64,000 bases of DNA. Origin: a virus. Location of the stretch: positions 1-64,000 of IMG/VR virus record IMGVR_UViG_3300013131_000002. One strand, 5' to 3'. Each line of letters opens with the position of its first letter. Position 1 is the first letter of the stretch. Positions 5,375 to 27,449 of the stretch are shown here, piece after piece. The translations under genes were made by a program, and so were the position numbers. The notes beneath the pieces were generated by a model that worked only from the letters and a program-made list of their open reading frames with translations, was not told where the DNA came from and did no database searches.

Positions 5375-6621
5375 TAGCTTAACGAGAAATTAAATGAAAC
5401 AGTAGTGATTTGTGCTGATGTAGCACCTCCTACCACGTTAGGATTTTTTGCTATGCAGTACAATCTATCTCCATTTGAAAATGATACAGTTGTACCATCA
5501 TCCGTTGCATATACTCCAGCGGCACTACCTGCAGCAATAGTAACTTTAGCGCCTAAAACGGATGCCGTTGCATTAGCTACATAAACTTGAAGACTGTTTG
5601 TTGCTGGGTTAGCAGACCTTGTTATTACTCTCATTTTGCTTGCTACTCCAGCAGGCATTGGGTACCCGGGCATAAAAGCAGCTGCCGCACTACCATAATC
5701 ACCTGCTGTAACAGCTACGGTAGCTACTGGTGTACCCCCTAAATAAATTGAACCTCTAGCCCCGTTTGTGATACCCGCTCCGTTAGCATTTCCAACAAAG
5801 ACAGTAGTATTTGAAGTTTGATAAGTATTTGTATCTAAAGCAAATGTACCCGCAGCAGTCATTTTTACAAAAGGCGTGCCCGATACCCAAGCAGGATAGT
5901 TAACAGCTGCCCACGTCCCTAGTGTTGGAGTCCCTGTAAGTTTACTATAAGCTAAACTTGTAAGCCAAGAAGGGTCAGCATAACTACCTGAACTTAATAA
6001 ATCTCCAACAGTCCAGGATCTATCTGCTGATAAATCGTAGCTTGTGCCGTTAATATTAAGAGTTCTTGATGTTGGAACATAGCCTGTTAAAGACGCTGAT
6101 GTAATATACCCTGATGGGTTTGTTAGTGGATAGTAAGTAGCAGCAGCAGTAGCTGAAGTTAAGTATGGAAGTAATGCTGCTGAAGTAATATAACCTGCAG
6201 GATTAGTAGCATCGTACTTTGCATTAAGAGCTGTTTGTAAGTCTGTCTGTGACGACAGTGTCCCAGTAATTGACCCCCAAATTGATGAGCCTCCTCCACC
6301 AGTAGCATTGATTGTTACATCCCCAGTAGATTGATCGATTGTCACGTTAGTCCCAGCAATGATGCTAGTCACTCCAGTGTTTGCAATTGTAATACTACCA
6401 TCAATCTCTGTAACTCCAATCCCTGTTCCAGCCAGTACAAAGGATGATAAGTATTTGAAGCTGAAGGTCTTTGCTTGTTGAGATTTTACATAAGACACAA
6501 GCACTTGCCCATGTCTTATGTTATCATACCTAAGTGTAGACCCATCAGATTCATCTACATCAACTAATTGCCGTAAGCTGATATTAGACTTTACAGTTTT
6601 ATTAGTTGAGAATTTTGTCAT
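5374..6621 (-). CDS. Tail/head fibre protein, likely receptor-binding
   Basis: A 415-aa protein rich in Gly, Ser, Thr and Ala. An N-terminal part (about 1-110) resembles attachment regions of Bacteroidota phage fibres, with a TGIGVTEIDG / NTGVTSIIAGTNVTI pair. A repeat region (about 110-260) follows, with recurring units such as AGYITSAALLPYL, SGYITSASLTGYV and TGTLSSQTDLQTALNAKYD. A C-terminal beta-rich domain (about 275-415) ends in SFNFSLS. Repeats of this kind build trimeric fibre shafts, with the C-terminal domain binding the host. The start abuts the next fibre-like gene. Fibre identity is likely; which virion structure carries it is unknown. Confidence 0.75.
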   Translation of the reverse strand: MTKFSTNKTVKSNISLRQLVDVDESDGSTLRYDNIRHGQVLVSYVKSQQAKTFSFKYLSSFVLAGTGIGVTEIDGSITIANTGVTSIIAGTNVTIDQSTGDVTINATGGGGSSIWGSITGTLSSQTDLQTALNAKYDATNPAGYITSAALLPYLTSATAAATYYPLTNPSGYITSASLTGYVPTSRTLNINGTSYDLSADRSWTVGDLLSSGSYADPSWLTSLAYSKLTGTPTLGTWAAVNYPAWVSGTPFVKMTAAGTFALDTNTYQTSNTTVFVGNANGAGITNGARGSIYLGGTPVATVAVTAGDYGSAAAAFMPGYPMPAGVASKMRVITRSANPATNSLQVYVANATASVLGAKVTIAAGSAAGVYATDDGTTVSFSNGDRLYCIAKNPNVVGGATSAQITTVSFNFSLS

Positions 6622-11790: not shown

Positions 11791-11940
11791 ATGGAAGAAC
11801 CAATTCACAGCGATGTGCTATCAGCAGTTATAAAGCACATAATATCTAATGCTGGTATAACTGATAAGTTAATTATTGATACTTTTGCTTTAGGCTTTAT
11901 AGCAGGAGTTAGATTTGTAGAAAATTCTCAAGCACAATAA
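11791..11940 (+). CDS. Hypothetical 49-aa protein
   Basis: A short frame starting MEEPIHSDVLSAVIKHIISN, with a second helix (TFALGFIAGVRFVEN) that is amphipathic to moderately hydrophobic. It follows the terminator/motif at 11702-11774 with an A-rich leader and precedes a small lipoprotein gene by 32 nt. No family recognised; real by position and codon use rather than homology. Confidence 0.45.
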   Translation: MEEPIHSDVLSAVIKHIISNAGITDKLIIDTFALGFIAGVRFVENSQAQ

Positions 11941-11972
11941 TCACGAAACATATTCACAAAAACAAATACGTC

Positions 11973-12134
11973 ATGAAAAATTCAACTCTTTATGCTCTAA
12001 TTACCTTTGCACTAATATGTGTAATGGCTTGCATGACTTCTTGCACAACCTCAAAAGGTTATGATTACAAGTCTCATGCAAAACGTAGTAATACTGGACC
12101 AAGTAAATGCTTTAAGAAGCATAATAATTGGTAA
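11973..12134 (+). CDS. Small lipoprotein (53 aa)
   Basis: The N-terminus is a type II signal peptide: MKN, a hydrophobic stretch (LYALITFALICVMA), then a lipobox-like MTSC with the cysteine at residue 24 (another cysteine at 20). The mature part (about 30 aa) is basic, YDYKSHAKRSNTGPSKCF, resembling short lipoproteins common in Bacteroidota genomes. Phage early lipoproteins often sit in the envelope and block re-infection (T5 Llp is an example), but that role is only suggested here. Confidence 0.6.
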   Translation: MKNSTLYALITFALICVMACMTSCTTSKGYDYKSHAKRSNTGPSKCFKKHNNW

Positions 12135-12140
12135 GAAAAT

Positions 12141-12256
12141 AATCACGGTACCAGCTCGTGCCCATGGGTAGCTCCCAACACCTTGGATGAACGACATTAG
12201 ATTGAGTGTACATTTACTTCTAATCGTCCTAAACTCCAGTAAACTGGTATCGTGAT
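12141..12256 (+). ncRNA. Structured RNA element closed by a 14-bp stem, upstream of polA
   Basis: AATCACGGTACCAG (12141-12154) pairs with CTGGTATCGTGATT (12243-12256) over 14 positions, the only imperfection being one G-U pair. Inside, GACATTAGA (12193-12201) pairs with TCTAATCGTC (12219-12228) with one bulge, and a GC-rich arm (about 12157-12182, GTG/CAC and GGG/CCC) gives a third branch. A multi-branch junction closed by a long stem 22 nt before a start codon resembles a riboswitch-like or protein-binding leader. No known class was recognised. Confidence 0.5.
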
Positions 12257-12278
12257 TTATGTTTAAAATTAATCACTT

Positions 12279-12485
12279 ATGGGTTATATGAAGTGGGTAA
12301 AAGGCCTGATGGACACGGGTCGACACACTGTTCTTCGTCAAAAGTATGATGAAGCAGTTAAGTGTAAATTTCAACGTGTAGAGTTTGATAATTCTAACAT
12401 GGATATTAAGTTTGTAGAAGCTGTTCTTGATTTCATTGACAAGAATGACGATGCACACCAATCCACTAAGAATGAAATACTCTGA
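12279..12485 (+). CDS. Hypothetical 68-aa protein preceding polA
   Basis: The product (MGYMKWVKGLMDTGRHTVLR start) is helical, with a basic first half and an acidic second half ending in a hydrophilic tail. It overlaps the polA start by 14 nt, so translation is coupled. It is the first gene after the structured element at 12141-12256. No motif recognised. Confidence 0.5.
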   Translation: MGYMKWVKGLMDTGRHTVLRQKYDEAVKCKFQRVEFDNSNMDIKFVEAVLDFIDKNDDAHQSTKNEIL

Positions 12486-14388
12486 CACTATCTATGTAGT
12501 CGGTGGCAAAGACAATCTCTTTGACTACCCATTAAAATCATGTACAATGCAAGAATGTGTTGACTATCTTAAATCAATTGATTTGATTGGGGTAGACACA
12601 GAGACCGAAGGTTTCGACTTCACAGGAAAGAAATTGCTCATGATTCAAATGGGGGATAAAGAGAAACAATTTGTTGTTGACTACAGAGTAACTAGTAAGG
12701 AAGACATAGCAATGTTGAAGGATGTTTTAGAAGATGACTCTAAGATAAAGATTCTTCACAATGCTAAGTTCGATTACAAGTTCCTCAAATTCTATTGTAA
12801 TATCAGCTTGACTAATGTGTACGACACATTCTTAGTTGAGAAGATATTACACTGTGGTAAGAATGATTACGGCTTTGCTCTTGGCAAGCTTACACAAAGG
12901 TACTTAGGGGTAACATTGAATAAAGAGGTTCGAAATAGATTCGTTAACCAAGAGTCAAACCCTTTTACAGTTGACCAGATTGTGTATGGTGCTAAAGACG
13001 TAGAGTACTTAATTGATATCTACCACAAACAACAGCCAGACATCGATGCTAAAAGATTACGTAATGTAGTCAAGCTTGAGAACTTGGCTGTAATAGTTTT
13101 CTCTGAGATAGAGTACGAAGGATTAATCCTTGATACAGAAGCTTGGAAGAAACTTGCTGTTAGAAACAAAGCATTGTCTACTGAACTTGAGAAAGATTTA
13201 GATATGACTTTGCTTGCTGATGAAAGATTCAGCCGATATAAAGCACAGAAGCAGATGGATATGTTTACACCTGTAGAAGAATTAAAAGATTCTACAGTTA
13301 AATGGTCATCTCCTTCTCAAGTGTTAAAGATATTCAGAACCTTAGTCCCTGAACTTGAGAATGCTAATGGTAAGAAGCTTGCACCTTATAGGTTTAAGCA
13401 TGTTCTTATCGACGAGTATATCAAGTATAAGGAGAAGGATAAGTTATCTTCTGCATTTGGGGAGAACTTCTACACATTCCTTAGTGCTGATAAGAAAGTC
13501 AGAACGAATTTCACACAAATCCTGGATACAGGTCGTGTTAGTAGTTCTGAGCCAAACATGCAACAAATCCCTGCTACTAACGAGTACAGAAATTGTTTCG
13601 TGGCCCCTGAAGGTTATGTATTTGTATCGTCAGATTATTCATCACAAGAACTAAATGTAATTGCATATGGATCTCAAGACCCTGTGTTCCTCAAAGCTCT
13701 AGAAAATAATGAAGACTTGCACTCAGTATGTGCAGAGTTAGTATTTGGAGATGTATGGAATAACGCTGCTGAACCAGACTGTGATTACGTATTGAGAAAA
13801 GAGAAATGTAATTGCAAAGCTCACAAGAAATTAAGAACTCAAGTTAAGACAATTAACTTTGGATTAGCCTATGGTATGGGCCCTAAGAAATTATCTGAGA
13901 CAATCAACTGCGACGTAAAAGAAGCAAAAGAGTTGATTACTAAGTATTTCAAAGCCTTCCCTAAGATTGAGAGTTTCTTAAGTAGTCTTGGAGAGTTTGG
14001 GAAGAGACATGGTTACATTGAGACCTTCCCTCCGTTTAAACGTAAGAGGTGGTTTAGTGGCTGGACTGCAAAGATGTACAATGATAGAGATAGCTTTATG
14101 GAATTGGGATCTATTGAAAGAGCCAGTAAGAACACACCGATACAAGGTAGCTCTGCTGATATGACTAAGCTTGCATTAGTTTACATTCACAAACACATCA
14201 AAGAGAATAATCTTCCTGTTAAGATAGTAATGACGGTCCATGACCAAATAGATACTATTTGCCCAAAGGATTATGCTGATGAGTGGAGTGTAGCAATGAC
14301 TGAGCTTATGGAGAAAGCAGCTAATGTAGTTATCAAGAACGGATTGCTAAAAGCAGAAACATCAATCACTAACGTATGGAGTAAATAA
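12472..14388 (+). CDS. polA: DNA polymerase I, family A, with 3'-5' exonuclease
   Basis: This is the replicative polymerase, 638 aa. The proofreading domain shows DTETEG (D42, E44), HNAKFDYKFL and YGAKD. The polymerase domain shows motif A, DYSSQEL (D388), motif B, RTQVKTINFGLAYG (conserved R, K, F and YG), and motif C, VHDQ (H590, D591), where most family members have HDE. No 5'-3' exonuclease domain is fused; that activity is separate at 27460. I start at the ATG at 12472; an upstream frame extension to 12427 reads through the previous gene and lacks family similarity. Family A polymerase is characteristic of one part of the crAss-like phages. It overlaps the next gene by 1 nt. Confidence 0.95.
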   Translation: MKYSDTIYVVGGKDNLFDYPLKSCTMQECVDYLKSIDLIGVDTETEGFDFTGKKLLMIQMGDKEKQFVVDYRVTSKEDIAMLKDVLEDDSKIKILHNAKFDYKFLKFYCNISLTNVYDTFLVEKILHCGKNDYGFALGKLTQRYLGVTLNKEVRNRFVNQESNPFTVDQIVYGAKDVEYLIDIYHKQQPDIDAKRLRNVVKLENLAVIVFSEIEYEGLILDTEAWKKLAVRNKALSTELEKDLDMTLLADERFSRYKAQKQMDMFTPVEELKDSTVKWSSPSQVLKIFRTLVPELENANGKKLAPYRFKHVLIDEYIKYKEKDKLSSAFGENFYTFLSADKKVRTNFTQILDTGRVSSSEPNMQQIPATNEYRNCFVAPEGYVFVSSDYSSQELNVIAYGSQDPVFLKALENNEDLHSVCAELVFGDVWNNAAEPDCDYVLRKEKCNCKAHKKLRTQVKTINFGLAYGMGPKKLSETINCDVKEAKELITKYFKAFPKIESFLSSLGEFGKRHGYIETFPPFKRKRWFSGWTAKMYNDRDSFMELGSIERASKNTPIQGSSADMTKLALVYIHKHIKENNLPVKIVMTVHDQIDTICPKDYADEWSVAMTELMEKAANVVIKNGLLKAETSITNVWSK

Positions 14389-23074: not shown

Positions 23075-23437
23075 ATGAGCTTAACTATTAATGAAAGCTC
23101 TATGTTTCTTAAACCACAAACTCTTAAAAAGGGAGACTTAATTATTATCTCTATTGGTAGTGGGATACACTATGCTATCTACGATAGTATGAAAGACGAA
23201 AGCAAGATTTATTTCTATCATTTAGGAGGGTCTTGGTGGGAGCATCCTTACCACGATAAAAGAGATAATCAAGATGCTTCATGGCTATATAAAAAGATTA
23301 ACAACCCTGGATTAGGGTCTGTTGACTTTACCAATAGTCATGGAAGTAAGAGAGTGGCCCCTTTACCACAAGAGTGGTGTACTAAGAAACTATTAGAGAT
23401 TCAAAAAGATTACAAAAAAGCTAGAAACTTATTATGA
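23075..23437 (+). CDS. Hypothetical 120-aa protein
   Basis: A strand-rich first half (LKKGDLIIISIGSGIHYAIY) suggests a small barrel (the pattern of LxxGDxVxI domains), and the C-terminal part is helical and basic. It overlaps the rIIA-like start by 4 nt. No recognised family and no obvious catalytic residues. May work with rIIA/rIIB or nucleic acid, but this is speculation from position. Confidence 0.5.
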   Translation: MSLTINESSMFLKPQTLKKGDLIIISIGSGIHYAIYDSMKDESKIYFYHLGGSWWEHPYHDKRDNQDASWLYKKINNPGLGSVDFTNSHGSKRVAPLPQEWCTKKLLEIQKDYKKARNLL

Positions 23438-26256
23438 GTATCAAACAAATTGACAATGAATTTGTCGGTTCAGATACCGGTGTTGCTAAACGTATCAATC
23501 GTGGTGCAGAGAAACTGGTGTTTGACATATTGCAAGCCACACAATATTCTACCCCAATCCCTTCAACTGTCAGAGAGCTGGTAACAAATGCCTGCGATTC
23601 TCAACGAGAGAAGGAGATTGCCATAGAGATATTGACTGGGCAAAAGACTGTGGAAGATTATTACATCAATCGAGAAGGTGAGCAGTACGAAGACAGTAAC
23701 TTCGATCCTAGTTATTATAGTATAACTAATCTTGATGTAGTAAACAAACACATTGACGTTATCTACAAGCACAACCCTGGAGTTGGATATTGTGACGAGT
23801 TCATAATTAAAGACTACGGTGTTGGTATCGGAGGTAGACGTTTAGAAGGTATCCTAGAGTTAGGTTATTCAACTAAACGTAATACTTCAGAGAACTTTGG
23901 TGCTTTCGGTTTAGGGGCTAAAGTTGCATTATCTACTGGTGTAGACTTCTACACAATTGAGACTGTGTACAACGGTCAACGATTCAAAGCAAATTGCTTT
24001 AACTACAAAACAGATTTTCTCATTCCGAGATTTAATCTTAGTACAGGCCAAGAGAATCCATACATCATATTTTCTGATGGGACTAAAGTCTATTACGAGC
24101 CGACTACAGAATTGAACGGAAGTACAATTTCGTTTGGAGTTAAGAAGCATAATGCAGATCGTTTTATTGATGCAGTCAGTGAGCAATTAACTTACTTGAG
24201 TAATGTTAAATTCTCCGTGGTTGAAGAGAATGGATATCAAAGAGAGATCGACTTCAAACCTAGTGTGATTTACAACTCAAAGCATTTGATTATCACTGAG
24301 AGTAACTATTATGCACGTCCACATATCGTCATTGTTAAAGCAGAGGGAGCAGCCACTGGTATTAACTATGGTCATGTGGATTTCCGAGAGTTGGAGATGG
24401 AGCAGTTATATGGGGCAGTTGGTCTGAAGTGTCCTATACGACAAGTGTATAAGAATGAACTTGGGGAAGAAGTAGTTATTCAAGACGGAGTCGATGTTAC
24501 TCCTAGCCGTGAGAAAGTAATCTGGTCTGACCACACTAAACAGTTTGTTCAGAACTTGATTATTAAAGCAGCTGAGGAAGCAACAGAGCTTGTGCAAGAG
24601 AAGCTGAATGAAACCGACTTCTTGAAGTGGGTAGAAGCTTGTAAGAATGTAGTATTCTCAGGGAAACTTACAGAGGATCACTCTTCAAACGGTAGAGTAT
24701 TGCAGGCTATGAGTCGAATCATTGACACTAAGTCTTTAAAGCCGGTATATCCAGAGAACAAACGAATTAAGTTTGAGCACATGGGTAAAATCTTTGAAGG
24801 GTTCAATGTTAGATTGCATACCTTGAGCAATAAGCTTGAGAACGGAGAATTTAAGATAGTCTCTAATACTACTGATGTTGATACTTGGGAAAAGTTTGAC
24901 ATTGCTAAAGTGTATTACAGAAAAGAAGGATTTACCAGACTTAAAGATGCATATCTTATGAAGCAGAATGGTGGTTCTTTTATCTCAATTCGGAAGAAGT
25001 CAACTCAAGACTTAGAGGACAAGTGTGATGATCCTGCTACACGACCTGAAGATTTAGTATTGTATGAAGCACAGTTAGGGAAGATTAAGAAGAACCAAAT
25101 AGAAATCGAGAAGTATTTACAATTATCTGAAAGCTACAAATGCTATGATGATGTGATAGTTCCTGATGACTTTGAGGCTACTCTTAAAGAGGAGGAAGAA
25201 GTACTGGCTGCTACAGGAGGAGGAACACAAAAGTTAACTCCAGCTGAACTTCGTGAGTTAAACAAGCAGATTGTTGGTTACACTGTTCGTGAAGCTACTG
25301 CTAGGAATGCTGTTAACTGGGATGATTCTGTATGGGATAAGGTAGAGCCAAAGCTATCAGAACTTAGAGCAACTGAGACTATAATTTATTATGGTACAGA
25401 TGAAGACGGTGAGAAGCTTAAGCTAGCTGCTGAAATCTTAAAGATGTTTGCCCCTAGAATCTGTGACATCTATCCTGGAGCTACTTATACTCCCCCTTAT
25501 TCTAATAGTAGAAGTGATGCTATGCATTTCTATATGTGTCATCCTACTAGATTTATGAATGGTAGAGGAGAGTTAAATGAGTATTCTATGGGAAGTGTAG
25601 TAAAGAGAGAGACTAAAAGTCCACAGTTGATTAAGCTTAGTGAAGCTAATGTCAAGCAAGTTAAGAACGTAGAAAATATCAAGCATATTGACGAGTTCTT
25701 CTATGCTGTGGATGAGGATGACAATCTTACTTGCAGCTTCTATCTGAGAGCATATTATGCTGCTCATGTAATGGATGTAGATAGAGTTCTACCTTTCTTT
25801 GAGAACTTACAATCTATCAATCCTTTATTTGGAAAGATGTATGAATCTCTTGATGGTGTAGCAGGCAAGCTATCTTACAAGTTGAAAGGTAAAAGCCATC
25901 CAGTAATTGATGAGGTTTTTACGAGACTGAATAAGATGGCTGCACTAGAGTATGTAAGCATGACCTCACCTGATGACAAGCAAGCAATTGCTAAAGCAGC
26001 AGGGGATTTGTTTATGCTATCTGATATTCCAGGTGCTAAGATTCGTCTTCCAGGATTTGAAGCAATCTTATCTTTCTACAAAGACTTCACAGATACTTCT
26101 AAACATATCTTATCTCAGATATCTAATTATAAGTATGAAGAAGAGGATACTAAACGTGAGATTCAGCTGTATCTTAAAGCAAAAGGGTTACTCGAAATGA
26201 CCATTCCTGTTGAAGAATTAAATGAGTTCGAGTCATTTATTTCATTAAATTTGTAA
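23434..26256 (+). CDS. rIIA: rIIA-like protein (GHKL ATPase)
   Basis: A 940-aa protein with an N-terminal GHKL (Hsp90/MutL-type) ATPase: N-box RELVTNACDS (E48, N52), G1 box KDYGVGIG (D127, G129, G131) and G2 box GAFGLGAK (156-163). The remainder (about 400-940) is largely helical. T4 rIIA has the same architecture (725 aa) and with rIIB controls lysis timing and protects against the lambda Rex exclusion system; crAss-like phages carry homologous pairs. The adjacent downstream gene is the rIIB-like partner. ATPase call strong; biological role by analogy. Confidence 0.88.
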   Translation: MSIKQIDNEFVGSDTGVAKRINRGAEKLVFDILQATQYSTPIPSTVRELVTNACDSQREKEIAIEILTGQKTVEDYYINREGEQYEDSNFDPSYYSITNLDVVNKHIDVIYKHNPGVGYCDEFIIKDYGVGIGGRRLEGILELGYSTKRNTSENFGAFGLGAKVALSTGVDFYTIETVYNGQRFKANCFNYKTDFLIPRFNLSTGQENPYIIFSDGTKVYYEPTTELNGSTISFGVKKHNADRFIDAVSEQLTYLSNVKFSVVEENGYQREIDFKPSVIYNSKHLIITESNYYARPHIVIVKAEGAATGINYGHVDFRELEMEQLYGAVGLKCPIRQVYKNELGEEVVIQDGVDVTPSREKVIWSDHTKQFVQNLIIKAAEEATELVQEKLNETDFLKWVEACKNVVFSGKLTEDHSSNGRVLQAMSRIIDTKSLKPVYPENKRIKFEHMGKIFEGFNVRLHTLSNKLENGEFKIVSNTTDVDTWEKFDIAKVYYRKEGFTRLKDAYLMKQNGGSFISIRKKSTQDLEDKCDDPATRPEDLVLYEAQLGKIKKNQIEIEKYLQLSESYKCYDDVIVPDDFEATLKEEEEVLAATGGGTQKLTPAELRELNKQIVGYTVREATARNAVNWDDSVWDKVEPKLSELRATETIIYYGTDEDGEKLKLAAEILKMFAPRICDIYPGATYTPPYSNSRSDAMHFYMCHPTRFMNGRGELNEYSMGSVVKRETKSPQLIKLSEANVKQVKNVENIKHIDEFFYAVDEDDNLTCSFYLRAYYAAHVMDVDRVLPFFENLQSINPLFGKMYESLDGVAGKLSYKLKGKSHPVIDEVFTRLNKMAALEYVSMTSPDDKQAIAKAAGDLFMLSDIPGAKIRLPGFEAILSFYKDFTDTSKHILSQISNYKYEEEDTKREIQLYLKAKGLLEMTIPVEELNEFESFISLNL

Positions 26257-26279
26257 TACAAATAATAACAAAATCTTTT

Positions 26280-27449
26280 ATGATTAGTTTAAATGTAATC
26301 GATGGAAACATCGTCGGATCTTACGGGGAGAAGTCATTCTCTGTAACGTACACTGAAGAGTTGTACAATAAAATGCAAGAGTTAGCTAAAAAAGCTGATC
26401 GTGTAGAAACAATGGATGAGCTTCGTGCCATCTTGGATACATTCGAAGGATTAGCTGTAGAAGACTATACTCAAGTTATCGAAGATAAATGTGAGTTTAT
26501 CTATGTGAACAAAGCAACCGGGGAATTCTTCTTGAAGACTGGTGATGTAGTTTCTAACATTCCAATGCCAGCAGCACTTGTAGAGAGAATCTATGAGTCT
26601 ATGGATATGGGGTTAGACTTCATGCCACTTGTTAAGATGTGGACTCGTTGGCTTCGTAACCCAATTCTTTGGAAGAAGATGCACAAAGGTACTGGAGTTG
26701 AATTCTCTACAAGATTCTTCAACTTCATTAACTTGAAGTATGTTCATCCTGTTCTTTACAAAGAGCTTACCGAGGAGAAAGGTTTTAGCCATGACGTAGC
26801 TGAGAAGAAAGCTACTATGTATCAAATGAAGATCACCAAGGAAGGTTTGTTGAATGGTTACAAAGTATCATCAGAAGTATTGCACAAGTTTGATGCAGAA
26901 ACTGGAGAAGTAGTAGACCGTTACAAACGTACATTCAATGTAGACACTGGTGAAATTGAGTCAGAAGGCTTACCAGAGTTTGTTGAGGATCGTTTGTTCC
27001 AACCTGCTATCATGGGTGATGGCGGAGATGCATTCTATTGTGAAGGTCCTACTGGCTATGAAAAGCCTGGGCATTTCATCAAAGTAGGATGTACTCATCG
27101 TCTTGCATCTTGGGATCAAGTTGATACTAACGACCGTCATTCTTGTGTACCTGGTTTACACTTCGGAGGTCTTGAGTATATCCACCGTATCTCAGGGGAA
27201 ATTCACAATATCTTTGTAGACCCGATGCATATCGGAGCTGTTCCAGATGATTCAACTGGTGCTATTCGTTGTATTCAGTATTTTGTGCATTCAAGTTTGG
27301 CAGGTGTAAATGGTTCTATTTATCACTCTTCAACTTATGCAGCTAAAACTGATGATGAATGGGCAACAGCTCGTAGAGAAGCAGTAGAGAAATCTTCATC
27401 TACTATTGAAGAAATAAAGGCAAAGATTGCTAGAATAAATAACATTTAA
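26280..27449 (+). CDS. rIIB: rIIB-like protein
   Basis: A 389-aa protein following rIIA by 23 nt. Sequence markers typical of the family include MPLVKMWTRWLRNPI (a central tryptophan-rich region) and CVPGLHFGGLEYI (a C-terminal C-x-x-GLHxG element). The C-terminal tail is charged and helical. In T4, rIIB is the partner of rIIA in membrane-associated lysis control. Its start context (26266-26284) is almost identical to that of the helicase-loader candidate at 17924. Assignment by neighbour and motif. Confidence 0.82.
   Translation: MISLNVIDGNIVGSYGEKSFSVTYTEELYNKMQELAKKADRVETMDELRAILDTFEGLAVEDYTQVIEDKCEFIYVNKATGEFFLKTGDVVSNIPMPAALVERIYESMDMGLDFMPLVKMWTRWLRNPILWKKMHKGTGVEFSTRFFNFINLKYVHPVLYKELTEEKGFSHDVAEKKATMYQMKITKEGLLNGYKVSSEVLHKFDAETGEVVDRYKRTFNVDTGEIESEGLPEFVEDRLFQPAIMGDGGDAFYCEGPTGYEKPGHFIKVGCTHRLASWDQVDTNDRHSCVPGLHFGGLEYIHRISGEIHNIFVDPMHIGAVPDDSTGAIRCIQYFVHSSLAGVNGSIYHSSTYAAKTDDEWATARREAVEKSSSTIEEIKAKIARINNI

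Follow-up and report, generated by a model that had tools for sequence, protein, structure and literature searches.

A small phage RNA family with a covarying three-way junction and two palindromic loops, carried as an exchangeable cassette and possibly self-associating

We identified a structured RNA, designated element A, that as far as our searches reach is a new, previously undescribed family of phage noncoding RNA. It lies in a 64,000-nucleotide stretch of DNA (positions 1 to 64,000 of IMG/VR record IMGVR_UViG_3300013131_000002, hereafter the window) belonging to a 78,251-base uncultured virus record. Eight relatives, three close and five highly diverged, occur in other uncultured viruses, so that all known members come from uncultured virus contigs. 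The stems vary freely across these members and the two hairpin loops stay conserved. That element A is a real conserved RNA, independent of the polA gene beside which it sits in the window, we regard as nearly certain. It is an accessory, exchangeable cassette whose presence and position vary among related phages. The reading we favor, to which we assign a probability of about 0.55, is that element A is a small processed phage RNA that would act in trans by associating with itself into dimers or larger assemblies.

In the window, element A is a 117-nt RNA in which AATCACGGTACCAG pairs with CTGGTATCGTGATT over 14 bp, one G-U among them. This closing stem, P1, encloses a three-way junction whose arms are the P2 hairpin and P3-P4 (Table 1). 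The first-pass annotation, made from the letters of the window, had reported the same 14-bp stem with its single G-U pair; its end, given as 12256, moves one base further, and the gap to the ATG, given as 22 nt, becomes 21 nt. Folded alone, element A reaches -36.7 kcal/mol, as against -23.7 ± 3.2 kcal/mol for dinucleotide shuffles (z = -4.0), and with its flanks the fold z is -2.3; values for the other eight members run from -2.5 to -4.0. Inverted repeats with comparable arm length and spacing exist elsewhere in the window, and the fold by itself is therefore moderate evidence only. What settles it as real is that nine homologues covary, which also bears out the earlier claim of a strong multi-branched fold that coding does not explain.

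Table 1. Element A, its helices and loops, and the flanking genes, in window coordinates.
Feature	Position	Strand	Basis
53-aa ORF, lipoprotein-like, its end 6 nt upstream of element A	11973..12134	+	ORF
Element A, three-way-junction RNA, 117 nt	12141..12257	+	fold, covariation
P1 5' strand, closing stem	12141..12154	+	alignment of nine
P2 hairpin, stems GTG/CAC and TGG/CCA	12158..12181	+	alignment of nine
P2 loop UAGCU, holding palindrome AGCU (12170-12173)	12169..12173	+	same in 9/9
P3 5' strand TTGGA, partner TCCAG 12235-12239	12183..12187	+	alignment of nine
P4 5' strand, GAC + A + TTAGA	12193..12201	+	alignment of nine
P4 apical loop with self-complementary hexamer UGUACA (12207-12212)	12202..12218	+	GGCGCC in register in L015
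P4 3' strand, TCTAA + TC + GTC	12219..12228	+	alignment of nine
P3 3' strand TCCAG	12235..12239	+	alignment of nine
P1 3' strand	12244..12257	+	alignment of nine
68-aa ORF, opening the downstream operon, 21 nt past the end of element A	12279..12485	+	ORF
PolA-type DNA polymerase	12472..14388	+	phrog_17, E 1.7e-106

A search of 37 records yielded a copy 83% identical to element A in contig L001, and DNA pattern searches added those in L090 and L114. A covariance model built from the first three sequences gave weak matches in L121, L128, L132 and L178, all four of which sit immediately upstream of a second conserved RNA candidate, element B (described below). An 8-sequence model then matched L015 with an E value of 2e-14, and it found no further carrier among the searched polA-relative and element B-carrying contigs (131 records in all). 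Family members span 105-118 nt. The combination of stem, UAGCU and UGUACA occurs only in members of the family in 3.3 Mb of sequence, counting both strands.

Every helix of the fold covaries, the check that the annotation had proposed. In a hand alignment of the nine sequences, guided by complementarity and thus made with the structure in mind, standard pairs fill 267 of 272 paired cells, and compensatory changes on both sides are seen at 19 of 33 pairs; because L121, L128, L132 and L178 (four of the five diverged members) are close kin, independent events are fewer than these cell counts. The inner 9 bp of P1 are common to all nine members and contain that helix's six double-changed pairs, with sequences as different as CGGTACCAG, CGGTGACAG, GCAATACAG and GTGATGCAG yet fully paired. 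The remaining double changes fall in P2a (one), P2b (two), P3 (four), P4a (two) and P4b (four). P2 carries them in L114 (GTA/TAC and TAA/TTA) and in the diverged group, and P3 reads CCGGT/ACCGG, CCAGT/ACTGG or ACAGT/ACTGT in diverged members. A separate tool, run on an alignment of eight sequences, counted 20 pairs with double changes and scored covariation at 0.554; none of 500 shuffles reached this score, and slid controls lay at 0.04-0.12. The cells departing from Watson-Crick pairing comprise 14 G-U on the plus strand, one A-C and four C-U, the last all at one terminal pair of P2a, which diverged members lack. Since the wobbles are G-U when read on the plus strand, element A acts as RNA from that strand.

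Several candidate matches were set aside in the course of these searches. Apart from L078, the loci from one DNA-pattern scan were dropped after checking as chance matches to a single pattern, as were the pattern matches in L109-L113. The match in L101 is coding and, like that in L108 (a Scytolyngbya MAG), lacks a model match. Antisense matches of the first covariance model (R1) arise because the P1 stem is palindromic and also matches when read in reverse. An origin of the fold as the terminal inverted repeats of a small transposon was rejected, since the departures from Watson-Crick pairing are G-U on a single strand and covariation extends to every inner helix.

The conserved loops are both palindromic. 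Loop 2 is UAGCU in all nine members, always with the palindrome AGCU. The loop 4 hexamer is UGUACA in eight of nine members and GGCGCC, in the same register, in L015, where a 14-nt loop TAAA-GGCGCC-CAAA replaces TAAG-UGUACA-UACU. When loop 4 was shuffled, a hexamer palindrome arose in that register in 0.5% of cases and anywhere in 4.8%. AGCU and UGUACA are each self-complementary and are not complementary to one another. Switches from one palindrome to another have served as evidence for symmetric intermolecular kissing loops in the RNAs OLE and GOLLD, and AGCU is one of the palindromes in that argument (PMC12286853). By the same logic, the switch in loop 4 leads us to infer symmetric kissing for element A, an argument consisting of one switch event (one of nine members) plus invariance.

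Copies of element A thus probably stick to each other through their self-pairing hairpin loops. Element A starts within about 10 nt of the upstream stop codon in the window, in L015 and in the L121/L128/L132/L178 group, and in the window it lacks its own T-run terminator, which together suggest that it would be cut out of a polycistronic transcript. The processed RNA would then pair with further copies through AGCU in loop 2 and through UGUACA or GGCGCC in loop 4. Because each molecule has two loops that are complementary to themselves, either a dimer held by two kissing contacts or a closed ring with an even number of copies could result. More tentatively, and with somewhat less than even odds, we suggest a very small RNA family that self-assembles into defined rings or doubly kissed dimers via its two palindromic loops and is swapped as cassettes with element B and tRNA-like genes. 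Natural RNA homo-oligomers are rare and mostly known among very large RNAs. If the suggestion is true, element A would assemble from RNA alone at a size far below that of GOLLD or ROOL, and a 105-118-nt phage RNA with a covarying fold and a palindrome switch would be a compact and easily tested example.

OLE, GOLLD and retroviral dimerisation sites offer precedents for the way in which element A is proposed to act. OLE loop 9.3 kisses symmetrically through a tetranucleotide palindrome, of which a published variant is the AGCU of element A loop 2, and loop palindromes switch in register in GOLLD L21a and OLE L9.3 as they do in element A loop 4 (PMC12286853). OLE is, however, an unrelated large bacterial RNA, and the AGCU of element A is invariant and so shows no covariation. 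GOLLD and ROOL are phage and prophage RNAs found near tRNA islands; element A is also phage-encoded and lies next to tRNA-like genes in some carriers. Unlike element A, at 105-118 nt, they measure several hundred nucleotides, and element A has no sequence or covariance-model match to them. They form RNA-only homo-oligomers, whereas an oligomer of element A is predicted from sequence. The dimerisation initiation site of HIV-1 presents an apical hexamer palindrome able to start dimerisation. Loop 4 of element A is likewise an apical hexamer palindrome, but the HIV-1 site lies within a genomic RNA leader, has another loop size and shares no common descent with it.

The closeness to the upstream stop codon, together with placement on the strand of the flanking genes, would equally suit a cis-acting intercistronic element, one that stays in the mRNA as a processing, stability or attenuation structure and yields no trans-acting RNA. 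We consider this unlikely: a generic hairpin needs neither invariant UAGCU and UGUACAU loops nor a three-way junction across such divergence, and the flanking genes vary from carrier to carrier. Against self-association, a protein or a host RNA might be what the conserved loops bind. Two invariant short loops on variable stems would be typical of protein-binding RNAs, and element A might be a sponge or scaffold whose loops are recognition sites for a phage or host protein. The change of UGUACA to GGCGCC in L015 keeps the palindrome, an outcome that protein recognition does not predict, and we give this alternative a rather low probability.

The first-pass annotation had proposed that element A could be a leader of the polA operon that senses a ligand or a protein, and its position 21 nt before the operon's first start codon fits that proposal. 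AATCAC recurs at 12269-12274, where a potential 6-bp alternative hairpin would let AAUCAC ahead of the start codon compete for the GUGAUU of the P1 3' strand. Folding predicts that the 14-bp P1 prevails, and AATCA precedes the start codon in the element-free L010 and L027 as well. The annotation had named absence of the stem in related phages of the same gene order as evidence against its proposal, and L010 and L027 are such phages: they carry the same small upstream gene, 68-aa ORF and polA, and the intergenic position holds a spacer of about 22 nt without element A. In all, polA is 84-90% identical in five phages that lack element A at that place; in three of them (L002, L003 and L004, polA 85-90% identical) it is absent from the whole contigs, and so from the vicinity of polA. 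Elsewhere it lies before element B or a tRNA-like gene. The leader proposal is thus not supported, and we think it improbable; the annotation's other suggestion, a processed small RNA, may hold.

Where element A is present, its position shifts. About 870 nt (L001) and about 500 nt (L090) separate it from the 68-aa ORF downstream, and element B and other small ORFs lie in this interval; in L015 it follows polA, and in L121, L128, L132 and L178 it occupies a different gene neighborhood. Such patchy presence and varying position show that the cassette is not bound to polA. Element A stands directly before element B in L001, L090, L114, L121, L128, L132 and L178. In L015 its place is exactly that of element B in L012, L014, L016 and L017, and a tRNA-like gene comes directly after it; in L001 a tRNA-like gene lies about 230 nt downstream of element A. 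The window has element A without element B, and ARAGORN finds no tRNA in the window or in the L114, L121, L128, L132 and L178 loci. Element B and the tRNA-like genes as neighbors suggest that element A would serve next to the other RNA cassettes of the phage instead of controlling polA. The sequence TAATCAC brackets the insert in the window (12140-12146 and 12268-12274) and also begins element A in its close relatives. Its presence at both ends makes it plausible that recombination at this short repeat brought element A into the window.

The packaging RNA (pRNA) of phage phi29 is about 120 nt long; it has a three-way junction, and its intermolecular contacts are made by two loops that pair with each other. 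Element A resembles it in size, junction and possession of two loops capable of intermolecular pairing, but a pRNA-like ring on the DNA-packaging motor is very improbable, given that each element A loop is complementary to itself and not to the other, that the element lies in a replication cluster with no link to packaging genes seen, and that it is patchy among close relatives.

Database comparisons place element A in no established family. Rfam returned nothing at the gathering score and nothing relevant at E values up to 10, and ARAGORN and the Rfam tRNA model find no tRNA fold within it. When the window, L090, L015 and L178 versions were compared with GenBank phages by blastn, no related DNA came up, the only matches being to tRNA T-arms or short and due to chance. 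No description of it was found in the open-access papers searched. Bacterial Y RNA (YrlA) with its partner Ro60 was rejected: Rfam gave no match, and the nine carrier contigs, some of them fragments, hold no TROVE protein (PF05731).

The window's PolA shares about 30% identity with Crassvirales polymerases in GenBank, and this kinship, with the look of the small lipoprotein, makes a Bacteroidota host likely. Alongside this Crassvirales-like polymerase, adjoining genes at window 23434-27446 match the PHROGs of the T4-type lysis inhibitors rIIA and rIIB.

Element B occurs in L001:2959-3072, in L090:9563-9713 and in 85 IMG/VR stretches, amounting to at least 64 distinct sequences. It has an invariant core, ATCGTAAAACACRG ... 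YYGTTCTCATCGTATAGGAGATAG ... GTTAGCCTT ... GACGTCGTTTAAAAAGGC, and a variable hairpin insert; covariation is visible (ACAG/CTGT, ACGG/CCGT, ACAAC/GTTGT), and no Rfam match appeared where this was tested. It may deserve its own study more than element A does. A phage RNA such as element A would moreover point to a broader system of RNA cassettes, so far without annotation, in environmental phages.

The tRNA-like genes (L007:3600-3681, L020:3569-3660, L006:3560-3648, L008:3570-3651 and L015:7136-7221) lie upstream of polA or directly behind element A or B. Their acceptor, D and T arms are good, scoring about 56 bits with Rfam tRNA in L007 and L020. Their anticodon loops run to about 10-22 nt without a plausible anticodon, and ARAGORN reports most as tRNA-???. 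Are these genes decoys, or tRNAs with tiny insertions? In L003, a tRNA-like gene about 220-330 nt downstream of the start of element B (1882) has an apparent insert in its D-loop region with inverted-repeat ends, ATCAATCGCG ... CGCGGGATTGAT. A candidate for a third RNA cassette is the conserved stretch CTATTAGTAAACTTTAGTACCCG...GAGGACGTAGGGC...; it lies at about 3075-3170 in L001, where 8-bp arms ACTATTAG/CTAATAGT close it, and after element B in L003, L151, L173, L177 and L197. A leader motif, AATAATCACGA, recurs before small genes and RNA cassettes in the window (11938-11949 and 12140-12151) and in L003, L004, L010 and L033, and is possibly a promoter or the cassettes' recombination seam. 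In L011, positions 5384-5611 hold a group I intron (Rfam, 53.6 bits) where that contig's polA match breaks off.
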